Shown here: in pieces, positions 28,113 to 43,182 of the stretch
How positions within the stretch are numbered: position 1 is the stretch's first letter
How the letters are laid out: the number at the start of each line of letters is the position of its first letter
Assembly (NCBI GenBank): GCA_000767215.1
Contig: AXCX01000007.1
Location: 1 to 46,568, forward strand
Length of the DNA: 46,568 nucleotides
Direction of reading: 5' to 3'
DNA from: Actinotalea fermentans ATCC 43279 = JCM 9966 = DSM 3133
GTDB lineage: Bacteria; Actinomycetota; Actinomycetes; Actinomycetales; Cellulomonadaceae
Translations under genes and position numbers: made by a program
Notes under the pieces: model-generated
What the model was told of the DNA's origin: nothing
What the model saw: only the letters and a program-made list of their open reading frames with translations
The model's database searches: none

Positions 28113-28146
28113 GGCAGGTTCGGCCCGCCGACACCCGCTTTAGGAG
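28113..28146 (-). repeat. attL: attL: degenerate 3' fragment of tRNA-Arg with 20-bp core
   Basis: The core GCCGACACCCGCTTTAGGAG (28127-28146) is identical to 43132-43151 inside the intact tRNA-Arg gene. To its left, 14 more positions match the tRNA T-arm with four changes, giving 30 of 34 identical positions. This is the displaced end expected when an element recombines into the anticodon/variable part of a tRNA gene. Confidence 0.82.
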
Positions 28147-28386: not shown

Positions 28387-29097
28387 TTACGGTGCACATG
28401 TCCGCAACAAATCATTCACCTGCGACTCCAGTCGCGCATCAAGAACGGTAGCCAGAGCCTTCAAGAACAGGATGGCCTCGTCCAGCTGGTCTCGCGTGAT
28501 GCGCCGAACATCAACCGCGTGTGCGACCGCATTCCGGCGCCCCACGATTTCTTCGAGTTTGTCCTTCAGGAACGAACTCGCCTCAGGCCGCCCCCAGAGC
28601 GCATCGAAGCCGCCGCGAACGACCGTGAAGATGTCAGCAACACCCACATCCGCGTACATCTCCTGCACGGTTCCGGGACCGGGGTTGGCCTTGGTCTCAG
28701 CGAACGCACCCGGCGAGACGATCTCCGCACCGACGACGCGTGCCGCGTAGATCACCTCCGCAAGTCGGTCAACCCGTTCCGTCTTCGAGCCGCGCGGACC
28801 TCGCATAGCTAGACCCAGTGACTCCCAGACGCTCTTGAGTCTCATCCGGTCCGGCAGCTTCGAGAACGCGATGACCGGCGGCTGCTGCGTCAGCGATCCC
28901 AGGCGCTCCAAGAATAGCGCGTGTAGGAACGCCTCGAAGGAGGACACCATCAAGATGGCTGCTCCGCCTCGAAGCGCGAGGCCCAGCGCCTCGGTCGCGC
29001 CAGAGGGAGGATCGGGGAGCGGCCGCTCTGCCACCACGAGTTCCTCCGCCATGGCGAGCGAGTCGAGAAACTCGAGCAGGGATTTCGAGGACGGCAC
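28387..29097 (-). CDS. HEPN (RiboL-PSP/MAE_28990-like) predicted RNase
   Basis: The 236-residue protein matches the HEPN type often annotated MAE_28990/MAE_18760. It has long helices, with the ribonuclease motif R-x4-H in GRRNAVAH (Arg188, His193). The segment GAAILMVSSFEAFLHALFLE is the usual first core helix. HEPN proteins of this motif cut RNA and act as toxins or immune effectors. The GTG start shares one base with the stop of the DUF262 gene (TAGTG), so the two proteins are made together, as in a two-gene toxin or defence pair. Confidence 0.8.
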   Translation of the reverse strand: MPSSKSLLEFLDSLAMAEELVVAERPLPDPPSGATEALGLALRGGAAILMVSSFEAFLHALFLERLGSLTQQPPVIAFSKLPDRMRLKSVWESLGLAMRGPRGSKTERVDRLAEVIYAARVVGAEIVSPGAFAETKANPGPGTVQEMYADVGVADIFTVVRGGFDALWGRPEASSFLKDKLEEIVGRRNAVAHAVDVRRITRDQLDEAILFLKALATVLDARLESQVNDLLRTCAP

Positions 29098-30266
29098 TAG
29101 CCCACCTGCTCGCCGATCAAGTCCCGCACTCGCGTAATGCGCCGCTTGAATAGGCTAGGTGTATTCGTTGCCGCGTCGACGCTCGCCAAGAATTCGGCGT
29201 CCCTAAAGAGCTCCTGCATCCCCGAAAGTATCGGCTCTCGCTTCTCGAGCAGCACCTCGCGCTCTTGACCCCGACAGGCGAACATCTGTGCATCGAACAG
29301 AGCCGCCAGCACCTGCCGACGCCATTGCCCGCTAGACGGGACCCACCTCTGGAAAGCGTGTTCGCCGAACGCCGCCTGCACATTGGATACGGTCGCGAGG
29401 AAGTCTTGCCTCATCTCCTCCAGAACCGCAGCGTCGGCGTACTGGCGCCGTGCCATAAACTCGTCCATGTGCCGCTGCATTCCTCCTGAGAAGGTATCCC
29501 AGGTGTCCCTGAACGTGAAGTACCTCAGCACGAACTCTGCGTCGCGCATCTCACGCCAGATCAGCGAGCGGTCACGTCGCTGGATATTCAGGAGATCGTG
29601 AAACGCGCGCTCCTCCGACAACTCGAGCACCAGGTTATTGAACGGCCCGGCCCAGGTGCTGTTCCGGATCTCCTGGGGATTCAGCCGCACACCGCCCGTG
29701 TTGAGACGCTTGAAGACCTCGAACTTCACATCCTTGTCAGACTGCCGGAGGATAATGATCGCCTGCAACGCCGCTCGGGTCTCAATTGCGTTTCGAAGCG
29801 GCGTCGGGATCTCCTCAACGGTGCTCCCGTTAAGCTCCGAGAAGACCTTGAGTCCGTTGAGCCTCAGGCGCCCCCTGAGGAAGTTGTGTACTGCAGTGAG
29901 CCTCTGCTTGCCGTCAATTACTGAGTACTTCCCGTAGTCGTCCTCATTAAGGAAGACCGATGGAACCGGGACGTTCATTAGGAACGACTCGATCAGCGCG
30001 CTTTGCCGCTTCTGGTCCCATCGAGCGCGCCGCTGGTACCTGGGCGACAGGTCGATCTTCGAGCTATGAATCAGGTCGGACAGCGTGCCGAGGTTGTAGT
30101 TGAGCACACTGACGACCAGTTCTCGCTGCCGGCTCTCCCAGAACCGAACGGGATCTACCTCCTCCCCCTCTTCGTCGAGGTCAGTCGCACTCTCCTCGAG
30201 GTCGACCTCAATGTCGACGGGCTCGCCAGTGCCAGCCTCAGTCAGGTCCTCGCGCTCGTCGGCCAC
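29097..30266 (-). CDS. DUF262 domain protein
   Basis: The 389-residue protein starts with a very acidic tail (about residues 1-45). Then comes the DUF262/ParB-like core: IDLSPRYQRRARWDQKRQSA, FLMNVPVPSVFLNEDD and YSVIDGKQRLTAVHNFL, with the (I/D)GxQR motif at 118-122. RLNTGGVRLNPQEIRNS is the second family block. DUF262 is the NTP-using domain found in GmrS/GmrD-type restriction and in many defence islands. The GTG at 30266 is chosen because AAAGGAGG lies seven bases upstream. There is no DUF1524 nuclease half; the adjacent HEPN may be the effector instead. Confidence 0.85.
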   Translation of the reverse strand: MADEREDLTEAGTGEPVDIEVDLEESATDLDEEGEEVDPVRFWESRQRELVVSVLNYNLGTLSDLIHSSKIDLSPRYQRRARWDQKRQSALIESFLMNVPVPSVFLNEDDYGKYSVIDGKQRLTAVHNFLRGRLRLNGLKVFSELNGSTVEEIPTPLRNAIETRAALQAIIILRQSDKDVKFEVFKRLNTGGVRLNPQEIRNSTWAGPFNNLVLELSEERAFHDLLNIQRRDRSLIWREMRDAEFVLRYFTFRDTWDTFSGGMQRHMDEFMARRQYADAAVLEEMRQDFLATVSNVQAAFGEHAFQRWVPSSGQWRRQVLAALFDAQMFACRGQEREVLLEKREPILSGMQELFRDAEFLASVDAATNTPSLFKRRITRVRDLIGEQVG

Positions 30267-30471
30267 CGTGGGCCTCCTTTCCACTGCTGGACGATATCGG
30301 ACGAGCACGTCGCGCGATGCCAGGGCTGGCCGATACGACGCTCGCCAAGGGCCCAGGCGCACCCTGGCAGGGACCGCGCCCGCTCAGGCCCGGATGGAGG
30401 GCCACACTTGGCGCCGACGCCCACACTCACGCCGGGCGCGACGGCAGACGCGGCCTGCGCCACCTCTCTGA

Positions 30472-32286
30472 TTACGCCTTGTCGTGCACCTTGCGGTCTT
30501 CTCCCACACGTAGCCGTCGGCCGTAGAAGTCAAGCCCGTCGAGTTGCGCGATGAGATCGGTTGTGACGCCGGCGCTCTCGACGACGGCAAACCCGAACCC
30601 GCGGTTTCTGTCACCCTTCTGCCCAGGCGGGAGGGTGACACTTAGGACCTCTCCGAATCCACTCAGCACAGCAACGATCTCTGCCTCGGATGCAGCAAGC
30701 GGCAAGTTGCCCAGGAATAGGTAGTGAGCACCCCGCGGTTCCTCGTCCTCACGCGGCGCACTCGCACTGGCATCCTGGCGCACGCGGTAGCTCTTCACCT
30801 TGCGAGTCGCGACTCCACGCCGTCGAGCCTCCGCACGCACCTTGCTGCGATCCTTTGTGCGCTCGATCAATCCGGCATTTCGAAGCGGTGTCAGGATGTC
30901 CTGTAGTTGGCCTACATCGACGATGCCGAGCGTGTCAATTGCATCCTGAGCCGAGAATTCACGGCCGTTGTAGCCTAGCGCCATCACCGCACGCTGCGCT
31001 TCCGATAAGTGGGCGGCATCAAAACTGCTCAGCCAGAGACTTACGTCTGGCTCGTAGAGTGACTTGTTGTACAGAGCAACTGTGAAGTTGTCGGACCCGT
31101 TTCTCAGCTCGGGTTCAGCGAGTCCACTCGAGCGCATCACGTTGAAGATGCGCACCACCCCTTCGCCCATCTCTCGCACGAGACCCACCTCGCGCAGGAC
31201 CCGCGCGATGAGCGGGTTGCGCGACTCGTGCACACCACGAAGCTGGGTCAGGTCGGAGAGGGCGACGGTTGACAGAAGGGTTCCTGGGCTGACGATCTCC
31301 ATACGGTCTGAATAGATGCTGACCTCAACACCTCGCCCTTCGATAGCGTAGTCGCGGTGTACTATCGCATTTAGCAGTGCTTCCCGACATGCGAGCTGAG
31401 GGTACAGGTAGTTCTGTTCGAATCGCGCGGTCTCGGTGAACGTGGGCTGCTGAGCCATTGCCAGAGTCAGTCGTTCCCATGCCGTGTCGACGAGCGTGAG
31501 AATGTTCCCCGCAACAACGTCGTCCTTGACCACGTTGTAGGAGGGCGCCGTCAATCTCTCCTTTCCACGCACCGTGATGATTCTGACCTGGGAGCGTGGG
31601 TGCCACCGTCGCACGTCCTTCGCGAACAGCGCGAGCGCCGCATTCTTGAGGCGCAAGCCGTCTGGCGTGAACTCCGCCAAGTCGAAGTATTGCAGGCATT
31701 TTTCCACGGATATGCCATACGCAACCTGCGCGGCCACCGAAGTGACGAGATCGAGGTCCAGGTCGCTCAGCCTGGCCGAGTAAACGACTTCTCGATCCCA
31801 GATCCGCGATCGGTCTTCCTCTCGGCTGTGGACGATCCGTTCAGCCGTGTCGGGGACGCTCGCGCGGTCTTCGCGCCGAATGCACCGCCCGTCTGACGTT
31901 AGGTAAACGAAGTCGAGGCCCTTGCTGATTGCGAAGTAGAGGATCTTGTCGCCGTCTACCTTGACAAGGGTCGCGGTCATGGCCGGGAGAGGCGTATCGC
32001 GATGCACGTGGGTGCGCGGCGCGGCCAGCAGCTCTTGGATTTCCGTCGCATCGAACGGGAGGCCAGTAACGGTACCGTCGTCTTCAACGCCCACGAGAAG
32101 CTCGCCGCCGTCGGCATTGGCGAACGCGACCAGCGTGCGCGCGATGTCCACGGCCACGTCCTTCGGACTGCGTCCGGTCCTGGCGCCGGGCGGTCCTGCC
32201 ATCGCGCTCTTGAACTCCCGGAAGTGGCTCTCGCCGATGCGAATCGCCAGCGACGCTCGCTCAGTGAGTTCCAGGGCCTCGGTCAT
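30472..32286 (-). CDS. AlbA_2/Schlafen-type ATP-binding protein fused to an RRM
   Basis: The 604-residue protein opens with an AlbA_2 (Schlafen AAA_4) domain at about residues 15-130 (ESHFREFKSAMAG, VAFANADGGELLVGVEDDG). The family's ATP-binding-like region follows at about 290-390 (CREALLNAIVHRDYAIEGRG, VREMGEGVVRIFNVM), then a winged-helix segment. Unusually, residues 521-600 form an RNA recognition motif with RNP2 LFLGNL and RNP1 RGFGFAVV. The N-terminal part is widespread as a putative regulator or helicase; adding an RRM implies that it binds RNA. It is monocistronic in the element's left cargo. Confidence 0.85.
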   Translation of the reverse strand: MTEALELTERASLAIRIGESHFREFKSAMAGPPGARTGRSPKDVAVDIARTLVAFANADGGELLVGVEDDGTVTGLPFDATEIQELLAAPRTHVHRDTPLPAMTATLVKVDGDKILYFAISKGLDFVYLTSDGRCIRREDRASVPDTAERIVHSREEDRSRIWDREVVYSARLSDLDLDLVTSVAAQVAYGISVEKCLQYFDLAEFTPDGLRLKNAALALFAKDVRRWHPRSQVRIITVRGKERLTAPSYNVVKDDVVAGNILTLVDTAWERLTLAMAQQPTFTETARFEQNYLYPQLACREALLNAIVHRDYAIEGRGVEVSIYSDRMEIVSPGTLLSTVALSDLTQLRGVHESRNPLIARVLREVGLVREMGEGVVRIFNVMRSSGLAEPELRNGSDNFTVALYNKSLYEPDVSLWLSSFDAAHLSEAQRAVMALGYNGREFSAQDAIDTLGIVDVGQLQDILTPLRNAGLIERTKDRSKVRAEARRRGVATRKVKSYRVRQDASASAPREDEEPRGAHYLFLGNLPLAASEAEIVAVLSGFGEVLSVTLPPGQKGDRNRGFGFAVVESAGVTTDLIAQLDGLDFYGRRLRVGEDRKVHDKA

Positions 32287-36066: not shown

Positions 36067-36279
36067 ATGACCACCACCGCACAGCACACCGCCCCCGCCA
36101 CCGCGGCCCGGCAGTACTACCGCGTGAAGGACGCCGCCCGGGTGCTCGGCGTGCCGCCCCGGACGCTGTACCACCTGGTCGAGCACGAGCAGATCCCGTA
36201 CCGGCGGCTCGGCACGGTGATCCTCCTCCCGGCGGCGTGGGTCGAGCGCGAGCCGACGATGCCGGTGAAGCGGCGCTGA
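36067..36279 (+). CDS. xis: Excisionase / MerR-like HTH protein
   Basis: The 70-residue winged-helix protein has the HTH_17 pattern YYRVKDAARVLGVPPRTLYH followed by the wing residues LVEHEQIPYRRLGTVILLP. Such small proteins act as excisionases beside tyrosine integrases. GAAGGAG precedes the ATG. Its TGA shares one base with the ATG of the integrase gene. A fragment of the same gene survives at 23554-23622. Confidence 0.88.
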   Translation: MTTTAQHTAPATAARQYYRVKDAARVLGVPPRTLYHLVEHEQIPYRRLGTVILLPAAWVEREPTMPVKRR

Positions 36280-37415
36280 TGTCCGTCACCAGACGGCAGC
36301 ATCCGACGGGCAAGGTGACCTGGCGCGCGAAGGTGTTCTTCGAGGGCTGGGTCATCGCGCAGCGGTCGTTCGAGCGCCGGGTCGATGCCAAGCGCTGGGA
36401 GGCGGACCAGCTCGCGAAGCTGGACGCCGGCTCGTGGATCGACCCGGCGCGCGGGCGGATGATGTTCGCGGCGCTGGCCGAGGAGTGGCAGGCCTCGCGT
36501 GGCCACCTGGCGGTGCGCAGCCAGGAGACCACACGGTTCCTGCTGGACAAGTACGTGATCCCGGAGATCGGGGCGTACCCGATCTCCGGGATCTCGGCGG
36601 CCGACGTCGAGCGGGTGATGTCCGCGTTGACGGCGCGGGGGCTGGCGACGGCGACGCGGCGTCGGGCGCTGTCGATGATGCGGCTGGTGTTCGACTACGC
36701 GATCCGCGACCGGCGGCTGTCGGTGAACGTGGCGCGGATGGTGGCGCTGCCCCGCGGGGGGACCAAGCGGGAGCCGCACTGGCTGCGGCCCGAGCAGCTC
36801 GGCCGGCTGGTCATGGCGGTGCCGCCGTTGTGCCAGCCGGTGGTGCTGTTCCTCGGGACCACGGGGTGCCGGTTCTCGGAGATGGCGGCATTGCGGGTCG
36901 ACGACGTCGTGCAGACCCCGCACGGCTTGGGGGTTCGGGTGCACCGGGCGGCGACGCAGTCGAAGCGGACCAGCGGCGCGGTGTTCGGGCCGACGAAGAC
37001 GCACCAGACGCGGACCGTGCCGGTGCCGGCGGCGCTGGATGCGTACGTGCGGACGCGGGTCGCCTTCACCGCGCCGGGCGGGTACCTGTTCCCGAGCCCG
37101 ACCGGCGGCGTGTGGACGAACACGAACTTCCGGGCGCGGTCGGGGTGGATGGAGGCGACGCGGCATGCCGGGGTCGAGGGGACGACGATCCACGACCTGC
37201 GGCACACGGCCGCGTCGCTTCTTGTCGCGGCCGGGGCGGACGTGAAGGCGGTGCAGGTGATCCTCGGGCACTCGACCGCGACCATGACGATGGACCTGTA
37301 CGGGCACCTGTTCAGCGAGGCCACGTGGCAGGCGATGGAACGGCTGCCGGTCATACCGCTGATGAAGGCGCCGCGGGCGATCGAACCACTACCGCCTGAC
37401 CTGCGCGGTGACTGA
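36279..37415 (+). CDS. int: Tyrosine site-specific integrase
   Basis: The 378-residue protein has an AP2-like arm-binding N-terminus, a core-binding domain (about 62-150) and a catalytic domain with Arg198, Lys240, His305, Arg308, His331 and Tyr341. These are carried in TTGCRFSEMAAL, GPTKTHQTRT, TIHDLRHT, ILGHS and MDLYGHLF. It is overlapped by the excisionase stop. It should recombine the attP core into tRNA-Arg(CCU). A catalytic-domain copy lies at 23622-24266. Confidence 0.93.
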   Translation: MSVTRRQHPTGKVTWRAKVFFEGWVIAQRSFERRVDAKRWEADQLAKLDAGSWIDPARGRMMFAALAEEWQASRGHLAVRSQETTRFLLDKYVIPEIGAYPISGISAADVERVMSALTARGLATATRRRALSMMRLVFDYAIRDRRLSVNVARMVALPRGGTKREPHWLRPEQLGRLVMAVPPLCQPVVLFLGTTGCRFSEMAALRVDDVVQTPHGLGVRVHRAATQSKRTSGAVFGPTKTHQTRTVPVPAALDAYVRTRVAFTAPGGYLFPSPTGGVWTNTNFRARSGWMEATRHAGVEGTTIHDLRHTAASLLVAAGADVKAVQVILGHSTATMTMDLYGHLFSEATWQAMERLPVIPLMKAPRAIEPLPPDLRGD

Positions 37416-37503: not shown

Positions 37504-37764
37504 GTGCCCCGACCTGTGCTGACCGACGGCGACCGAGCACGCGGTCGCGCCCTGGGGCAGGCGCTCCGAGCAGCCCGCGGGGAGCGATCACAGGCGGAGA
37601 TCGCTCGGGCCGCGTCCTTGTCGCTCGACACGCTCCGGAAGCTCGAACAGGGCGGCACGCCCACACCGGGCTTCTTCCTCATCGCGCTGGTAGCCCGCGA
37701 ACTCAACCTTGCGCTCGACGATCTGGCGTGCGCAGTGTTACCAACCGAAGGAAGGCGACCATGA
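37504..37764 (+). CDS. XRE-family helix-turn-helix regulator
   Basis: The 86-residue protein is essentially one HTH_3 domain: GQALRAARGERSQAEIARAA, SLSLDTLRKLEQG and a final helix. The GTG start is used because it lies seven bases after a -10-like TATTCT. Its TGA overlaps the ATG of the DNA glycosylase gene, so it heads the operon 37504-41382 and probably represses it until the element is disturbed or a phage arrives. The operator guess rests only on the TTATC repeats. Confidence 0.88.
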   Translation: MPRPVLTDGDRARGRALGQALRAARGERSQAEIARAASLSLDTLRKLEQGGTPTPGFFLIALVARELNLALDDLACAVLPTEGRRP

Positions 37765-38549
37765 CGACCATCGCTGCACCGCGTCCCTCGCAGGAGCTGG
37801 CGCACGAGCCGGTTGGTGAGGACGTGGTGTTCTGCGGCTCCGACTGGCGCCGTGTGGTCCGCTGGCACGATGCCACGCGCCTAGGTACGGCGGCCTTCTG
37901 GATAGATCAGGCGCGTCGCCGGCCGCGGCCGGCGACCTACCAGGTCGGTAGCGGTCTGCACCAGGAGGTGGCACTGTGCCTCCTCGGCGGCTACGGGATC
38001 ACCGAGAGGATGGCGTACCACGCATACAGGCGGCTGCTTGACGAGCAGCTCCTGAGCGGCGAGCCGGTCGACGTCGAGACACTGCGTGAAGCCCTCGCGC
38101 GGCCATTTGACCTGCCGGGTCACCCTCGCCCAGTGCGGTATCGATTCCCGTCGCTCAAGGCCGAGCGTCTCGCAGGTGCGCTCGAGTATCTGCGCGAGAA
38201 CTCGCCTCCGTCGATCGCCCAGCCAGTCCCCCTTAGAGACTGGCTGACGTCATTGCCCGGAATTGGCCCGAAGACTGCGTCGTGGGTCGTACGGAACGTC
38301 ACCCGGACCAACGATGTCGCCGTCATCGACATTCACATCCGTCGAGCTGGAGTCGTCGCCGGCGTCTTCGACCCAACCTGGAAGCTGCCGCGCGACTACC
38401 GCCGCTTTGAGGAAGCATTCGTCACATGGGCTCACGTCGGGGGCATACCGACGGCTGACCTTGACGCCTGCATCTGGTCCACGCTGGCGACCATGGGCCG
38501 TGGCGCCCGATTGATGTTCGGTGTCGCCACTTTGGGTGATCTTGACTGA
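37761..38549 (+). CDS. OGG-like HhH DNA glycosylase
   Basis: The 262-residue protein has a helix-hairpin-helix GPD core. LTSLPGIGPKTASWVVRN carries the hairpin and the bifunctional lysine (Lys171, equivalent to OGG1 Lys249); AVIDIHIRRAG carries the catalytic Asp190. It should excise an altered base and cleave by a Schiff base. No iron-sulfur cluster cysteines are seen at the end, unlike Nth. OGG-like HhH proteins accompany QueC-like proteins in type IV CBASS operons, and here a QueC-like gene follows. It begins inside the XRE stop codon. The target base is unknown: it could be oxidised guanine or a modified phage base. Confidence 0.85.
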   Translation: MTTIAAPRPSQELAHEPVGEDVVFCGSDWRRVVRWHDATRLGTAAFWIDQARRRPRPATYQVGSGLHQEVALCLLGGYGITERMAYHAYRRLLDEQLLSGEPVDVETLREALARPFDLPGHPRPVRYRFPSLKAERLAGALEYLRENSPPSIAQPVPLRDWLTSLPGIGPKTASWVVRNVTRTNDVAVIDIHIRRAGVVAGVFDPTWKLPRDYRRFEEAFVTWAHVGGIPTADLDACIWSTLATMGRGARLMFGVATLGDLD

Positions 38550-38623
38550 AGCACCCCCTCCAGGCCCACCAAACCCGGTAGGGTTGCCGTGCGAAGAGGC
38601 GGCTGCGACCGAGGGGGCAAACA

Positions 38624-38962
38624 ATGGGCGGAAGCGGTGGCTCGGGTTACGAAGTCGACATCATCGGCGGGGGCGCTGGCGGACCTTCGTGCTCGACCCT
38701 CTCGTTCGACGCACCTGTAGCGTCGCCCGATCCTGCTGTCGTCGCGCAGATCTCGGTCCACGACACCTGCGACGTAGTCGTCGCCGGCGTGCCGCCGCAG
38801 GTGCGTCTGCTGGTCCGGCCCATCGGCGCTCAGCTCGGCGCGCTTACTGAACGCATTGCCGACCTCACGAAGTGCATAGCGGACGGGTACCGATACGAGG
38901 CCGAGGTGATCAGCACAGCACCGGTTGTGCGGGTGCGAGTCCGGCCCCAGCGCAACAACTGA
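38624..38962 (+). CDS. Small Met-Gly-Gly N-terminal protein of unknown function
   Basis: The 112-residue protein starts MGGSGGSGYEVDIIGGGAGG, so Met removal would leave an exposed flexible Gly-Gly terminus. The rest looks like a small beta-barrel: APVASPDPAVVAQISVHDTC, VVVAGVPPQVRLLVRP and DGYRYEAEVI, ending in a beta strand VVRVRVRP. Two cysteines (residues 23 and 49) are present, and a third at 84 lies in LTKCIADGYRY. I do not recognise the family with certainty. GAGGGGG lies about six bases ahead of the ATG. It sits between the glycosylase and the PfkB-NDT gene, in the operon of a QueC-like enzyme, which suggests it is a substrate or adaptor of that enzyme. Confidence 0.8.
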   Translation: MGGSGGSGYEVDIIGGGAGGPSCSTLSFDAPVASPDPAVVAQISVHDTCDVVVAGVPPQVRLLVRPIGAQLGALTERIADLTKCIADGYRYEAEVISTAPVVRVRVRPQRNN

Positions 38963-38966
38963 CGTG

Positions 38967-40157
38967 ATGGACGTCACGGTCGTCGGTGGCGTCTACGACG
39001 AGGTCTGCGTCGACCCAGCTGCACACCGTCTCATGGGCTCGGGACTGCGGGCGGCACGCCTGCTTCACGCTCTCGGGGCCGATGCGAGCCTTGCCACCTG
39101 CGTGGACGAAGCGACAGCGCCGGAGCTGGGCGCCGTGGCGGCTGCTTTCGAGGTGCCCGTCTCCACGACACCTCGCACGGCTCCGGTGCGCTACTTGTAC
39201 GAGACACCCGTACACCCAGCGATCCGGCCCGGCTCAACCGGCGGTGGACCGATCGCCGCGGACGGCGACGTTGTCGTTGGCTTCGGGATGATTGAGACCG
39301 AGTGGACGGCCAGAGGCGATCGCGTTGTCATTGACCCGCAGCACTCCGAGGTCGCCGACCTGCTCGGCAGGGTCAGTGCCCCCCACCGGGCGCTCGTGCT
39401 GAACGAGCACGAAGCGCGGCGCTTCGCAGGACACGGCGACCTGCGCAGCGCGGCTCGGCACTTCCTCGAACTTGGCATCGAGGCGGTCGCCATCAAGAGA
39501 GGGGCCCGTGGCGGGTTGGTCGCCACGGCGAGCGGTCTCAGCGCGTTCGGAGCGGTTCCGACCCGTCGGGTCGACCCAATCGGCTCGGGCGACGCGTTCA
39601 CCGCGGGTTTCGCCCACGCCTGGGCAGTAGAAGCAGCCGAGCCGCTCGAGGCCGCGCGCTTCGCCTCCCGCGTCGCGGCGGCACATTCACTCGAGGGTGC
39701 AGCCGGCTTCAACGCCGACGTCCTCGCGAACGTCGGCGAGCCCACCGCATACCCGCAGGACTCAATGCCGTCTGTGTACCTCGCGGGCCCGTTCTTCAAC
39801 GTCGCTCAGCGAATGCTCATCCGCGTGGCTCGACGGGCCCTACTACATCTCGGTGTGGAGGTGTTCTCACCGCTCCACGAGATCGGCCACGGAGGCGACG
39901 AGGTCGCCGAGCTCGATATCGCGGGTCTGGAACGCTGCACGAGCGTCCTCGCGATCCTCGATGGCGCTGACTCGGGCACCGTCTTCGAGACGGGTTGGGC
40001 AACAAGGGCCAACATCCCCGTCGTCGCACTCGCCGAGAACGCCGATGACCACGCTTGGACGATGCTTCGCGGAACCGAGGCACTCGTGCTGCCCGACCTC
40101 TCCAGCGCGATCTACAACGCTGCGTGGGCGGCCCTGGGCCGAGACGCCGAGAAGTGA
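38967..40157 (+). CDS. PfkB-type kinase fused to nucleoside 2-deoxyribosyltransferase
   Basis: The 396-residue protein has two parts. Residues 1 to about 255 are a ribokinase/PfkB kinase with LVLNEHEARRF, AIKRGARGGLVATA and the catalytic VDPIGSGDAFTAGF (Asp209). Residues about 268-396 are a nucleoside 2-deoxyribosyltransferase: SVYLAGPFFNVAQRMLIRVA, SPLHEIGHGG and the catalytic DSGTVFETGWA (Glu341). The two could make and phosphorylate a nucleoside with an unusual base, or strip a base from one. The ATG at 38967 lies four bases after the stop of the small gene; its TGA overlaps the GTG of the QueC-like gene by three bases. Confidence 0.87.
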   Translation: MDVTVVGGVYDEVCVDPAAHRLMGSGLRAARLLHALGADASLATCVDEATAPELGAVAAAFEVPVSTTPRTAPVRYLYETPVHPAIRPGSTGGGPIAADGDVVVGFGMIETEWTARGDRVVIDPQHSEVADLLGRVSAPHRALVLNEHEARRFAGHGDLRSAARHFLELGIEAVAIKRGARGGLVATASGLSAFGAVPTRRVDPIGSGDAFTAGFAHAWAVEAAEPLEAARFASRVAAAHSLEGAAGFNADVLANVGEPTAYPQDSMPSVYLAGPFFNVAQRMLIRVARRALLHLGVEVFSPLHEIGHGGDEVAELDIAGLERCTSVLAILDGADSGTVFETGWATRANIPVVALAENADDHAWTMLRGTEALVLPDLSSAIYNAAWAALGRDAEK

Positions 40158-40759
40158 GCCGGCTCCTGCTCCTCTCCGGAGGGCTCGACAGCACGGCCAT
40201 TGCCGCCATGACTCGTCCCGACCAATGCCTAACCATTGACTACGGACAGGTCGCGGCTCAGGCAGAGGCCCGGGCCGCCAAGCAGGTGGCCACGTTGCTC
40301 GGTATTCATTGGAGCATGATCACCGTCCCGGCGAGAGAAGTGGGCGCCGGGCTGATGACGGGAACGGCCACCGATCCGCAGGGGCCTCCGGACGCCGCTC
40401 CTGAGTGGTGGCCGTTTCGCAACCAACTTCTGATCACCCTGGCAGCCGCGTGGGGCGTCACTCGGGGCATCACCGTCGTGGAGGTCGGGACTGTCGCATC
40501 CGACGGCGCTCGGCACCTCGACGGCACCAGCCTCTTCCTCGAGGCCATTGATCACGTTGTCGCAAGTCAGGAGGGCCACATCCGCGTTCGCGCGCCGGCC
40601 GCGAAGCTGGGGGCCGTTGAGCTGCTCACGACCTCGCCGGTGACCGAGGACGTCCTCGCCTGGACTCACTCATGCCACCGCGCGAACTTGCCTTGCGGAG
40701 CCTGCCCGGGATGCACCAAGCGCCGAGAAACCCTGGCGGCTGTGGGCCTCCTGCAGTGA
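40154..40759 (+). CDS. QueC-like 7-cyano-7-deazaguanine synthase homologue
   Basis: The 201-residue PP-loop ATPase is shorter than true QueC (about 225-235). It has the SGGLDS motif (8-13), LTIDYGQ (27-32), WPFRNQLLI (86-94) and the zinc-binding cysteine set Cys174, Cys181, Cys184 and Cys187 in SCHRANLPCGACPGC. QueC adenylates 7-carboxy-7-deazaguanine and turns it into preQ0. No queD, queE or folE gene is nearby, so it would use a precursor made elsewhere or imported. QueC-like relatives work in phage defence (QatC, CBASS Cap9). Both its start and its stop overlap neighbouring genes. Confidence 0.87.
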   Translation: MSRLLLLSGGLDSTAIAAMTRPDQCLTIDYGQVAAQAEARAAKQVATLLGIHWSMITVPAREVGAGLMTGTATDPQGPPDAAPEWWPFRNQLLITLAAAWGVTRGITVVEVGTVASDGARHLDGTSLFLEAIDHVVASQEGHIRVRAPAAKLGAVELLTTSPVTEDVLAWTHSCHRANLPCGACPGCTKRRETLAAVGLLQ

Positions 40760-41382
40760 CTGCCAAGAGAGGACGCCTCGCGACCGCCGGCTGGGTCGCG
40801 ACCTTCGTCGCCTGCGTCGCGCTCGCGAACTGGGCAATCATCCACATTGGAGCCGACAACGGCGACGGTGGTCCTCGCACCCTTCCGCTCGGGTTCGGCC
40901 TGCACGCACCGTCCGGGGTCATCTTCGCGGGTGCCGTCTTGACAGTGCGCGACATGATTCATGAACGACTTGGCACTCTCGGCGTTCTTGCCGTGATCGC
41001 GGCGAGCGCTCCTGTGACTGCTCTGACATCGACGCGATCACTAGCGATTGCGTCGGTGGTGACATTCGCGATCGCGGAGATCGCTGACCTGCTCATCTAC
41101 GAGCGCATGCGCCACCGCCGTCGGATCCGTGCGGTCGTCGTCAGCAACGCGGCCTCCGGCGTCCTAGACTCCGTCATCTTCCTTGCCATTGCCTTCGGCA
41201 CAGAAGCAGCCATCACGGGAGCGCCTGGGATGGCAATCGGCAAGGTGGGGGCGTCAGTGTTGACCCTCGCACTCGTTGAGATCCTCCGGACCCTTGTGAT
41301 TCCACGAAGAGCCGTAGGGACGGAAGCGAACGAGCGAGGCGCCGAGGCGGAACCGTCACGCGCAGAGCGAGCCGTCCGGTGA
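40756..41382 (+). CDS. VUT/YhhQ-type membrane transporter
   Basis: The 208-residue membrane protein has about six hydrophobic segments (WVATFVACVALANWAII, SGVIFAGAVLTVRDMIHE, VVTFAIAEIADLLIYERM and others). The VLTVRDMIHERLG loop and the A-E-x-x-D pattern are typical of the VUT family, whose YhhQ members import queuine, preQ0 or preQ1. Its GTG overlaps the QueC-like stop by four bases. In context it would import a deazapurine base for the QueC-like or deoxyribosyltransferase enzyme. The C-terminal 20 residues are charged. Confidence 0.83.
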   Translation: MTAKRGRLATAGWVATFVACVALANWAIIHIGADNGDGGPRTLPLGFGLHAPSGVIFAGAVLTVRDMIHERLGTLGVLAVIAASAPVTALTSTRSLAIASVVTFAIAEIADLLIYERMRHRRRIRAVVVSNAASGVLDSVIFLAIAFGTEAAITGAPGMAIGKVGASVLTLALVEILRTLVIPRRAVGTEANERGAEAEPSRAERAVR

Positions 41383-41388
41383 CCGCCT

Positions 41389-42747
41389 TCACGAACTGCT
41401 GGCGGGAATCACCAACTGCAGCAGCCGTTCGCGGATATCATCGGGGGCGGAGAGGTATCCCCAGTTGATTACAACGCTGGCGACCGCATCCGCAACAGCG
41501 AAGGAAGGCGCGCCGTCGTTTAGCGCATCGACCTCTCCGGCCCACATCAGCGAGGCTTGCGACGCCCGGGAACGAATACCCAGCACTTCGAGATCGACGT
41601 AGCTCTCGAGGCTATCCCGGATCGCGTCGCGACGCAGGGCGCCTCTACCCTGGGCGTGGAGCTCAAGGATCCCGGACGTGGGCACGGCCTCGCCGTACTC
41701 GTCAGCCAACCATGCAGGCATCGCCCTCATCGCGTGCCGCGCGAGGTCAGCGAGGCTCCCAAGCACCCCGGAGGCGGGCAATGGGCCGACCGGGACCGAA
41801 AGGCTGACGTCTGCGATGAATCGCAGACACGGGCCACCGTCAAACAGAGCTAGAGCCGAGCGCACCGAAGCCTCCGGCTCACCTCCGGCGGACCGTGCGC
41901 AGTCCTGCTCTGCGACGAAAAAACTGTCAAAGGTGTGCGTCGCGTCCAAAGCGGCTTGCTGAGGACCACCGACGCCACCGTTGCGGGCGTAGTAGCTGTG
42001 CCATCGATCCAAGACCGCAGTGGGGACCGTGGAGAGGAACGCGGCCGGATTCGTCAAACGGGCAAGACCCTGTTCCCAACTACTGGGCCGCCATACTGCC
42101 CGGAGATGGACGCAGGGTCTGTTCTGGTTCAACTCGGCGAATCGAGCCGGGTGACTATTCGCCAGTAGCGAGTCGAGACCATAGCGGGCGAGTGTTGTTG
42201 TGACAACCGCGGGGGAAGTGTGGCGGGTGCTCGGCGCCGCATGCACAGAAGAAGTAGCCGCAGGTCTCTCCCGCGTTGACCGTGACCCTTGCTCCTCGAT
42301 GACCTTCTTCGCGGCGAGCACGGATCCGTTTAGAGCAGCGAGCAAGTTACCGTCGCGCCGGGCCCGATAGTCCGGAAGTCTCGTCAGCCCAAACAGGTCA
42401 CTCGGCAGCCTTACGCCCGATTCGACCTCAGGACACAGAATCAATACGCGGCGGACGCCCAGTATCCCAATGAAGAGTCCCAACTCGAGGATTACGTTGT
42501 CGCGAGGAGATGCACCGCGCTCTCCCCGACTCTCAGTGAGGTCGTCCGGTGCGGCTATCAAGATTGCGAAGTCCGCTTCGCGCGCGGCCTTGGTCAATGA
42601 CTCCAAAGCGTACTCGGACGGCGTGAAGACGTTCTGGTCCCAGACCGTTGCCTCGCACTTCACCGCCTGTTCCAGAGCGACGTGCAGGTTTCTTGCCACA
42701 TCCAAGCGCTCTGATGAGGATCCGATGAAGACCCTTGGTCGATCCAT
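41389..42747 (-). CDS. TIR-like nucleotide-binding protein with novel C-terminal domain
   Basis: The 452-residue protein has an N-terminal CAP12/PCTIR-type TIR domain (about residues 3-140): RVFIGSSSERLDVARNLHVA, FAILIAAPDD and the catalytic region SPRDNVILELGLFIG with Glu88. Such domains cleave NAD+ or bind cyclic nucleotides. The remaining 300 residues are a separate domain I do not recognise, perhaps the sensor, beginning near SPAVVTTTLARYGLDSLL. GGAGAAG lies before the ATG at 42747. It converges on the VUT gene with six bases between stops, so it is not in that operon, but it is the last gene before the attachment site and may be the killing partner. Confidence 0.83.
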   Translation of the reverse strand: MDRPRVFIGSSSERLDVARNLHVALEQAVKCEATVWDQNVFTPSEYALESLTKAAREADFAILIAAPDDLTESRGERGASPRDNVILELGLFIGILGVRRVLILCPEVESGVRLPSDLFGLTRLPDYRARRDGNLLAALNGSVLAAKKVIEEQGSRSTRERPAATSSVHAAPSTRHTSPAVVTTTLARYGLDSLLANSHPARFAELNQNRPCVHLRAVWRPSSWEQGLARLTNPAAFLSTVPTAVLDRWHSYYARNGGVGGPQQAALDATHTFDSFFVAEQDCARSAGGEPEASVRSALALFDGGPCLRFIADVSLSVPVGPLPASGVLGSLADLARHAMRAMPAWLADEYGEAVPTSGILELHAQGRGALRRDAIRDSLESYVDLEVLGIRSRASQASLMWAGEVDALNDGAPSFAVADAVASVVINWGYLSAPDDIRERLLQLVIPASSS

Positions 42748-43109
42748 ACTTCTCCACTCGCGAGGCGCCGACGTTTGGAGCCTACTAACGCCGGCGCCGC
42801 TCATGGGCCCGGCGCGACCAGTCCGCAGCAAGTCGCACGTGGAGCTGACCGAACCGTCAGCGTGACAGGCGGCGGTGCACGACCCCACCGCGCAGGCCGC
42901 CACGACTCAGCTCCACGCCCTTGGGAGGGCTCTGGCGGCCTTGCACGCTCCGCCGTCTAGCGTCCGTCGGCGTCCGTCCACGTTCTTGACAGGCTGTCCA
43001 CGTCCCGAGACAAGTCGCTGACCACACGCTGACCAATGCCCGGCAAATCGGACATTGCCCCACCGCCGCCGCGGCACCCACACCGACTCTGACCTGCAAA
43101 AACACTGTG
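42748..43109. other. Intergenic right end of the element
   Basis: No gene is seen in these 362 bases. They should contain the TIR gene promoter and the right arm of the element: a segment similar to 28051-28106 (42964-43012), the GCTGACCA pair (43017-43035) and CTCTGACCTGC (43087-43097). Confidence 0.65.
43017..43035. repeat. Paired GCTGACCA arm-type repeat, right end
   Basis: The same 19 bases as 28230-28248, GCTGACCACACGCTGACCA, in the same orientation, 97 bases inside the right core. This is the likely integrase arm site. Confidence 0.6.
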
Positions 43110-43182
43110 TGCGCCTGGGCAGATTCGAACTGCCGACACCCGCTTTAGGAGAGCGGTGCTCTATCCCCTGAGCTACAGGCGC
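43110..43182 (-). tRNA. tRNA-Arg (anticodon CCU)
   Basis: The minus strand gives a complete 73-base cloverleaf: acceptor GCGCCTG/CAGGCGC with discriminator A, D-arm GCTC/GAGC, anticodon arm CCGCT-CTCCTAA-AGCGG with CCT, variable GTGTC and T-arm GGCAG-TTCGAAT-CTGCC. CCA is not encoded. It reads AGG codons. The element's core repeat (43132-43151) lies within the anticodon-to-variable part, and the gene stays intact after integration. Confidence 0.95.
43132..43151 (-). repeat. attR: attR core inside tRNA-Arg
   Basis: GCCGACACCCGCTTTAGGAG is identical to 28127-28146. On the tRNA strand it covers the anticodon, the anticodon stem 3' side, the variable loop and the first T-stem bases. Confidence 0.82.

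Follow-up and report, generated by a model that had tools for sequence, protein, structure and literature searches.

A QueC-like and PfkB-NDT operon on an integrative element of Actinotalea fermentans, a proposed third system of protein-nucleobase conjugation

What could a six-gene operon of deazapurine-type enzymes be for in a bacterium with no apparent queuosine pathway? The question is raised by positions 37504-41382 of a 46,568-nucleotide (nt) stretch of Actinotalea fermentans ATCC 43279 (contig AXCX01000007.1 of assembly GCA_000767215.1), the whole of which is here called the window. In known systems, Cap9 joins 7-carboxy-7-deazaguanine (CDG) to Gly2 of CD-NTases that start with MGGS, according to two reports (PMC13279940; PMC11996544). 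We propose, and consider reasonably likely, that the operon represents a third QueC-type conjugation system, in which CDG would be joined to the N-terminus of a small protein, followed by the action of a kinase-deoxyribosyltransferase fusion, with an antiviral use. The six genes form one operon: all six open reading frames (ORFs) were open at the coordinates listed below, and the description given in an earlier note on this DNA, of six genes in one operon, agreed with the ORFs, their spacings and their families.

37504..37764, + strand: XRE-type regulator (HTH_31, 9.6e-7), a putative repressor
37761..38549, + strand: OGG-type helix-hairpin-helix (HhH) DNA glycosylase/lyase (Ogg-HhH, 1.6e-11), overlapping the XRE gene by 4 nt
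38624..38962, + strand: small protein of 112 amino acids (aa), beginning 74 nt after the OGG gene and without a Pfam family; the proposed conjugation substrate
38967..40157, + strand: fusion of a PfkB kinase with a nucleoside 2-deoxyribosyltransferase (PfkB-NDT; PfkB 2.2e-16, Nuc_deoxyrib_tr 9.7e-16), after a 4-nt gap from the small-protein gene
40154..40759, + strand: QueC-like enzyme of 201 aa (PF06508, QueC, 1.5e-25), overlapping PfkB-NDT by 4 nt; the proposed ligase of CDG to the N-terminus
40756..41382, + strand: VUT-type transporter (Vut_1, 1.9e-8), overlapping the QueC-like gene by 4 nt; the proposed importer of a 7-deazaguanine precursor

A set of 99 loci (the window and L002-L099), all chosen by their PfkB-NDT, was surveyed. 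The sources were a tblastn search of plasmids with the PfkB-NDT (38 records), a profile scan of genome contigs (limited to the 80 best of 181 matches, so that the sample consists of near relatives) and a profile scan of viral contigs (the best 80 of 111), in which L092-L099 were full homologues and were used, while L100-L171 (n = 72) matched in part only, mostly in the NDT domain, and were left out. By profile searches, the small protein was present in 96/99 loci (all except L011, L019 and L021) and the QueC-like enzyme in 93/99 (all except L024, L026, L033, L043, L048 and L068, of which L033 is uninformative because its contig stops just past PfkB). Co-location elsewhere, on which the earlier note had staked its claim that the genes belong together, was thus found, and to an extent beyond chance. 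An OGG match was detected in 78/99 loci and a SagB-like flavin enzyme gene in 61/99, followed by a Dam-like methylase (32/99), a dGTPase-like gene (16/99), an XRE-like match (12/99), a PurA-like gene (5/99), and VUT (3/99: the window, L005 and L012) and QueE-like matches (3/99). The loci came from Pseudomonadota, Cyanobacteriota and haloarchaea, and also from Bacteroidota, actinobacteria and others; the nearest PfkB-NDT, among the best 80 of 181 genome-contig matches, was that of Nocardioides sp. Soil797 (49% identity). The kinase GxGD and the NDT DxGTxxExG motifs were unvaried in nine aligned PfkB-NDT proteins (alignment A1), as were, across 20 aligned relatives of the OGG-like protein (alignment A6), Lys171 and Asp190, which we take to be its catalytic residues. 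In L050, L080 and L093 one QueC-like gene is flanked by two pairs of small-protein and PfkB-NDT genes, and on the plasmids L008 and L216 multiubiquitin-domain, ThiF-type and DUF6527 genes lie close to the module.

The 112-residue protein, to which the earlier note assigned no role, is proposed here to be the substrate of the QueC-like enzyme. In the window it has a Gly-rich tail beginning MGGSGGSG, followed by a predicted domain at about residues 24-110. When starts were chosen by a rule that took no account of the motif, M[SGAT]G opened 87 of 102 small proteins, and the same rule applied to the neighbouring ORFs gave it in 2/99 QueC, 3/106 PfkB, 0/85 OGG and 2/70 SagB-like cases. Twelve of the 14 small proteins annotated in their records start with M(S/G)G, a count that includes one whose annotation starts a Met too early and an identical pair (L007, L228); the commonest start among the relatives was MSGS (47/100, by a crude rule). 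The first residues are conserved and the remaining tail is variable; the invariant Gly3 in alignment A4 is no evidence of this, since that alignment was made from motif starts only. The small proteins of the haloarchaeal loci L006, L222 and L224 are long, apparently with two domain copies, and that of L224 starts MCGGGS.

The identity of residue 2 was associated with the presence of the SagB-like gene, which accompanied 70 of the 84 small proteins with Ser or Thr at this position and none of the 17 with Gly or Ala (Fisher, 3e-11); the window belongs to the Gly2 kind and has no SagB-like gene. For this count, the 122 small proteins that were paired with a PfkB were reduced to 115 with non-identical PfkB, then to 107 by leaving out eight rows with less than 1500 nt after PfkB (L064, L096, L013, L047, one of the two L010, L075, L088 and L033), to 102 with QueC and to 101 with Ser, Thr, Gly or Ala. 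Residue 2 was that of the M[SGAT]G start with the best score if there was one and otherwise that of the best-scored start, with L029, L054, L072 and L224 read by eye. The pattern was first noticed in L002-L099 and the window; the 17 non-identical rows added later, many closely related to rows already present, comprised 13 Ser with the oxidase, two Ser without, one Gly without and one Cys without. To take relatedness into account, changes in the two characters were counted on the PfkB tree (9 and 10), and a likelihood test of correlated evolution gave a likelihood ratio of 24.6 (p = 6e-5) on a quickly built tree in which many branches are weak. A close contrast, within a clade with support 100, sets L029 and L215 (Ser, with oxidase) against L031 (Gly, with the QueC and OGG frames about 410 nt apart); in L014 (Gly), L022 (Ala) and L092 (Gly) the distance between these two frames is 3-10 nt.

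The SagB-like proteins matched TIGR03605 with E-values from 1.6e-14 to 2.6e-5 in the four members scanned, all below the curated cut-off. In a search of the PDB with their profile the top matches were CyaGox (1.7e-19), a SagB-type dehydrogenase and BmdC (1.5e-12), all three of which we take to be azoline oxidases, with plain nitroreductases further down (from 3.9e-11) and McbC at 0.011. The association of the oxidase with Ser2 suggests that an oxazole is formed with this Ser. It may instead be that the nucleobase is conjugated to another acceptor protein, the Ser/Gly tail being a flexible linker and the SagB-like enzyme working on a different substrate; Gly-rich tails are common as linkers, and 14 of the 84 Ser/Thr2 rows have no SagB-like gene. 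We regard this as the least probable of the alternatives, given that the first tail residues are conserved while the rest varies and that the presence of the SagB-like gene tracks residue 2.

The domain that follows the tail is predicted to have a HIRAN fold. An AlphaFold2 model built with 62 relatives had a predicted local distance difference test score (pLDDT) of about 50 in tail residues 1-20 and mostly about 90 in the domain, with 75 at residues 51-70. With VIA-align, the domain matched lp_0118 (3k2y) at Z 11.5, the HIRAN domains of HLTF and Rad5 at Z 8.6, and HamB, a protein of the Hachiman defence system, in its C-terminal part at Z 7.4; sequence searches of the PDB and Pfam with the small protein gave nothing convincing. 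HIRAN domains bind DNA ends. Together with the OGG gene, the predicted fold points to DNA, as do the Dam-like and dGTPase-like genes of some loci, and this could be read as DNA modification or restriction: the QueC-like enzyme and PfkB-NDT would make a deazaguanine deoxynucleotide for DNA, the OGG protein would cut DNA with or without the base, and the HIRAN protein would read the DNA. We rate such a system as improbable, ranking it behind the salvage reading discussed below; it leaves the N-terminal motif unexplained, and no TGT-family inserter was found in the host genome, where a very divergent one could escape.

Conjugation to the small protein gains further support from loci in which the proposed acceptor has been exchanged. 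A group of 11 loci, called branch B (L011, L206-L210, L212, L213 and L225-L227), carries PfkB-NDT, an OGG/DNA lyase and the QueC-like enzyme but lacks both the small protein and a SagB-like gene. In 10 of the 11 a ThsB-like TIR gene lies directly 3' of QueC (the frame after QueC was not recovered for L206), and its product starts with MGGSS, MGGGSSG or MGGGGGG; in L011, L225 and L226, TIR genes are also annotated among the PfkB-NDT, OGG and QueC-like genes. The TIR protein of branch B is a candidate for a nucleobase-modified TIR, although the loci are kin, so that the swap does not represent ten events. In five other loci (L024, L026, L043, L048 and L068) an adenylosuccinate-synthetase-like (PurA) gene, whose one scanned member matched PF00709 at 1e-42, stands in the place of QueC and adjoins the small-protein and PfkB-NDT genes; four of these five lack an M[SG]G start, and N-termini such as MKGK and MSKRK occur in the group. 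QueC and PurA both attach an amine to a ring of purine type via an activated oxygen, and for this reason their common step here may be a purine-amine ligation.

In the QueC-like enzyme, residues S8, G9, G10, D12 and S13 of the SGGxDS ATP loop were unvaried across 10 aligned proteins (alignment A2), as were Y30, G31, Q32 and E38; the C-terminal zinc signature CH(x)5CxxCxGCxK is present in the window protein as CHRANLPCGACPGCTK. Besides the ATP loop, these proteins have kept four Cys and the P-x-R-N motif, as well as an Asp aligned with D117 of Cap9, the residue that reads the guanine edge. The window protein scored 78.5 bits with TIGR00364, the NCBIfam model of canonical QueC, below its cut-off of 150.3, and has HLDG where canonical QueC has YPDC.

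The earlier note had called the operon undescribed-looking, which does not hold for its QueC group: Libby et al. (2026) have published QueC proteins with PfkB-NDT in about 89% of their neighbourhoods, and with frequent HTH genes, as cluster 4, which they read as purine salvage (PMC13329287). The zinc signature, the SGGxDS loop and the PfkB-NDT neighbour are shared with the operon, and the two were taken as the same protein group, with a spacing of 5 after YGQ in place of the 6 in YGQ(x)6E of cluster 4.

Queuosine synthesis itself was rejected for the window's host. A search of its draft genome (841 contigs, with a completeness rating of 100%) found no tRNA-guanine transglycosylase (TGT), no PTPS/QueD and no QueE, and the only QueC match was that of the operon, which makes it unlikely that the operon serves queuosine; the absence of partner genes for queuosine synthesis that the earlier note reported thus extends to the whole draft genome. 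Among relatives, three of the genomes checked have both the operon QueC and a canonical QueC (L014, L018 and L023), and in all three the two lie on different contigs.

QueD and QueE make CDG. Both QueD and QueE-like genes were present at the locus in three actinobacterial relatives (L038, L042 and L053), following QueC in overlapping frames in L042; the QueE-like calls were under the curated cut-offs, and that of L053 was weak. The window and L012 carry VUT in place of these genes. In the hosts of all three relatives the locus QueD is the sole PTPS, and no TGT was found in those of L038 and L042, so that, in two hosts at least, CDG production seems to serve this system. These genes and the base-reading Asp support the deazapurine chemistry proposed in the earlier note.

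The same enzymes could instead serve the salvage of purines or deazapurines, with VUT importing a base, the QueC-like enzyme amidating it and PfkB-NDT turning it into a nucleotide, while the small protein would be a regulator or chaperone. The enzyme families of PfkB-NDT and the presence of a VUT gene speak for salvage, which is also how the cluster was interpreted in PMC13329287. We nevertheless hold salvage to be quite unlikely, as it leaves unexplained the M(S/G)G start and the swap to an MGG-tailed TIR, the link between the SagB-like gene and residue 2, and the OGG gene in 78 of the 99 loci.

Conjugation to the small protein could proceed as follows. The QueC-like enzyme would activate CDG with ATP and form an amide with the N-terminal amine freed by removal of Met (that of Gly2 in the window); CDG would be supplied by VUT uptake in the window's host, by co-carried QueD and QueE in some relatives, or by the host's own pathway. 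In preQ0 synthesis, a second ATP step of QueC turns the amide into a nitrile. In proteins with Ser2 or Thr2 this ancestral step would be diverted: attack of the Ser hydroxyl on the activated amide would yield an oxazoline, and oxidation of the latter by the SagB-like flavin enzyme would yield an oxazole. PfkB-NDT would most likely act next, on the exposed base, adding or exchanging deoxyribose and then phosphorylating it, in the position that Cap10, of the TGT family, holds in type IV CBASS (cyclic oligonucleotide-based antiphage signalling system). The tagged HIRAN domain would then bind DNA ends or single strands, with the OGG glycosylase working on the same DNA. A further step, which we consider unlikely, would turn the small protein itself into a nucleoside or nucleotide, deoxyribose and phosphate being added to its deazaguanine (deazaguanine-oxazole with Ser2), after which the product could be attached to DNA, or exchanged into it, where the OGG protein has opened a site; the PurA variants would do likewise via ligation of the C6 amine on an ordinary purine.

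Several observations weigh against the proposed conjugation. Most relatives have Ser2, as opposed to the Gly2 of the demonstrated Cap9 substrate, and apart from the 14 Ser/Thr2 rows without an oxidase the sole Cys2 row also lacks it. Three independent pairs on well-supported branches, a number too small for significance, differ in residue 2, and the oxidase follows in 2.4 of them on average and is never opposed; five pairs differ in the oxidase, and residue 2 follows in 2.1 and is the same in 2.9; neither result is significant. The base-stacking Y115 of Cap9 aligns with a His in the window QueC-like protein, which by sequence is equally near canonical QueC (2pg3, 5e-22) and Cap9 (4.6e-19). A TGT is present in the L053 host; in the hosts of L032 and L073 neither TGT nor PTPS was found, and their loci gave no VUT or QueE match, so that no source of CDG was found for them. 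The HIRAN assignment is a fold match only, for a window protein without a Pfam family; the best Foldseek E-value was only 2.4e-3, and the aligner cautions that Z below 8 may reflect a common arrangement, with SmpB reaching 6.4. Finally, the PurA variants form one clade and thus represent one event.

The wider setting of the operon is that of a mobile element, with the following features.

28127..28146: left attachment-site copy, an exact repeat of the 20-bp tRNA-Arg segment 43132-43151
36276..37415, + strand: tyrosine integrase of the element (Phage_integrase, 1.7e-17)
41389..42747, - strand: Cap12-type TIR gene, convergent with the operon (CAP12-PCTIR_TIR, 7.6e-30); a neighbour and at most a possible part of the system
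43109..43182, - strand: tRNA-Arg(CCT), the integration target

The tRNA-Arg repeats bracket an integrative element of about 15 kb with the operon at one end, which also carries a TrwC relaxase and an excisionase-like HTH gene. Between the repeats there are HEPN, GmrSD and Schlafen/AlbA genes together with the relaxase, the excisionase-like gene and the integrase, and after these the operon with the convergent TIR gene. The repeats, integrase and relaxase confirmed the earlier description of the operon as integrative-element cargo adjoining a TIR gene. The opposite end of the element (28387-32286), with HEPN, GmrSD-type restriction and Schlafen/AlbA-RRM genes, is a second likely defence cluster. 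By analogy, defence is the likeliest use of the operon, since it sits on a mobile element, TIR genes lie nearby, and type IV CBASS and qatABCD offer parallels; we infer an antiviral function, and the system would probably be an anti-invader response carried on mobile elements.

The module is thinly and widely scattered. When whole genomes were sampled, PfkB-NDT was found in 1/296 class members (the host's own genome), 3/369 gammaproteobacteria and 4/337 alphaproteobacteria (each including the seed), 16/348 Pseudomonas (including the seed and five of branch B) and 1/345 Bacteroidia (the seed), and a search of 50,697 phage records gave one weak match, in the NDT domain only. The Citrobacter version matched 22 of 5426 complete Escherichia coli genomes, all chromosomally, and with 80% or more of the query covered in 18 cases; both of the E. 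coli copies inspected lie near recombinase genes. Near the copy of E. coli KMi029 (L228) there are three recombinase genes, a pair of ATP-dependent nuclease and UvrD-helicase genes, and a dGTPase annotated as anti-phage.

For one defence system, a report of 2025 described conjugation of a nucleobase to a protein (PMC11996544), and a second such system has been proposed (PMC13279940). If the proposal made here is true, it would add a third, widely spread system (bacteria, haloarchaea and some E. coli), in which HIRAN and TIR proteins can stand in for each other as acceptors, as QueC-like and PurA-like enzymes apparently can as purine-amine ligases, and for which deazaguanine-oxazole is predicted as a new end product. 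The ability of such an enzyme to tag N-terminal Gly or Ser with a base would be of practical use, and the E. coli copies make the chemistry readily testable. The terms 'glycosylase', 'nitroreductase' and 'HIRAN' are absent from the main text of PMC13329287, and in the open-licence literature we found neither the small protein nor the oxidase link described, nor the operon beyond cluster 4. The QueC group is thus known in print, whereas the small protein, its N-terminal motif and the oxidase link appear to be new.

Among known systems, azole-forming peptide maturation (SagB, McbC, CyaGox) resembles the present one in that the flavin enzyme of the relatives matches TIGR03605 and those structures; it differs in that cyclisation would be done here by the QueC-like enzyme, and in that the window has no SagB-like gene. 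With the HIRAN proteins HLTF and Rad5 and the C-terminal part of HamB, the small protein shares a fold (Z 7.4-8.6 over 74-86 residues), but it is a stand-alone protein with a Gly-rich tail and 12-18% identity to them. In qatABCD, as in the operon, a QueC-family protein goes with a partner that has an N-terminal motif, and QatB requires its N-terminal MGTS region (PMC13279940). The operon differs in that its families include no KAP ATPase (QatA) or TatD (QatD), its QueC-like protein has 201 aa, whereas QatC is about 20 kDa larger than QueC, and the base-pocket Asp is kept, where QatC has Thr. Type IV CBASS, with which the earlier note compared the operon, is the nearest analogue, although the host genome has no TGT, and no CD-NTase was found among the seven proteins scanned, those of the operon and the TIR gene; the place of the partner is taken here by a HIRAN-fold protein or by a TIR, and a SagB-like gene is common among the loci. 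Both systems combine a QueC-family enzyme, a partner that starts with MGGS and an enzyme of base-exchange type, NDT here and the TGT-like Cap10 there. Type IV CBASS also has an OGG-type gene, as the operon does.

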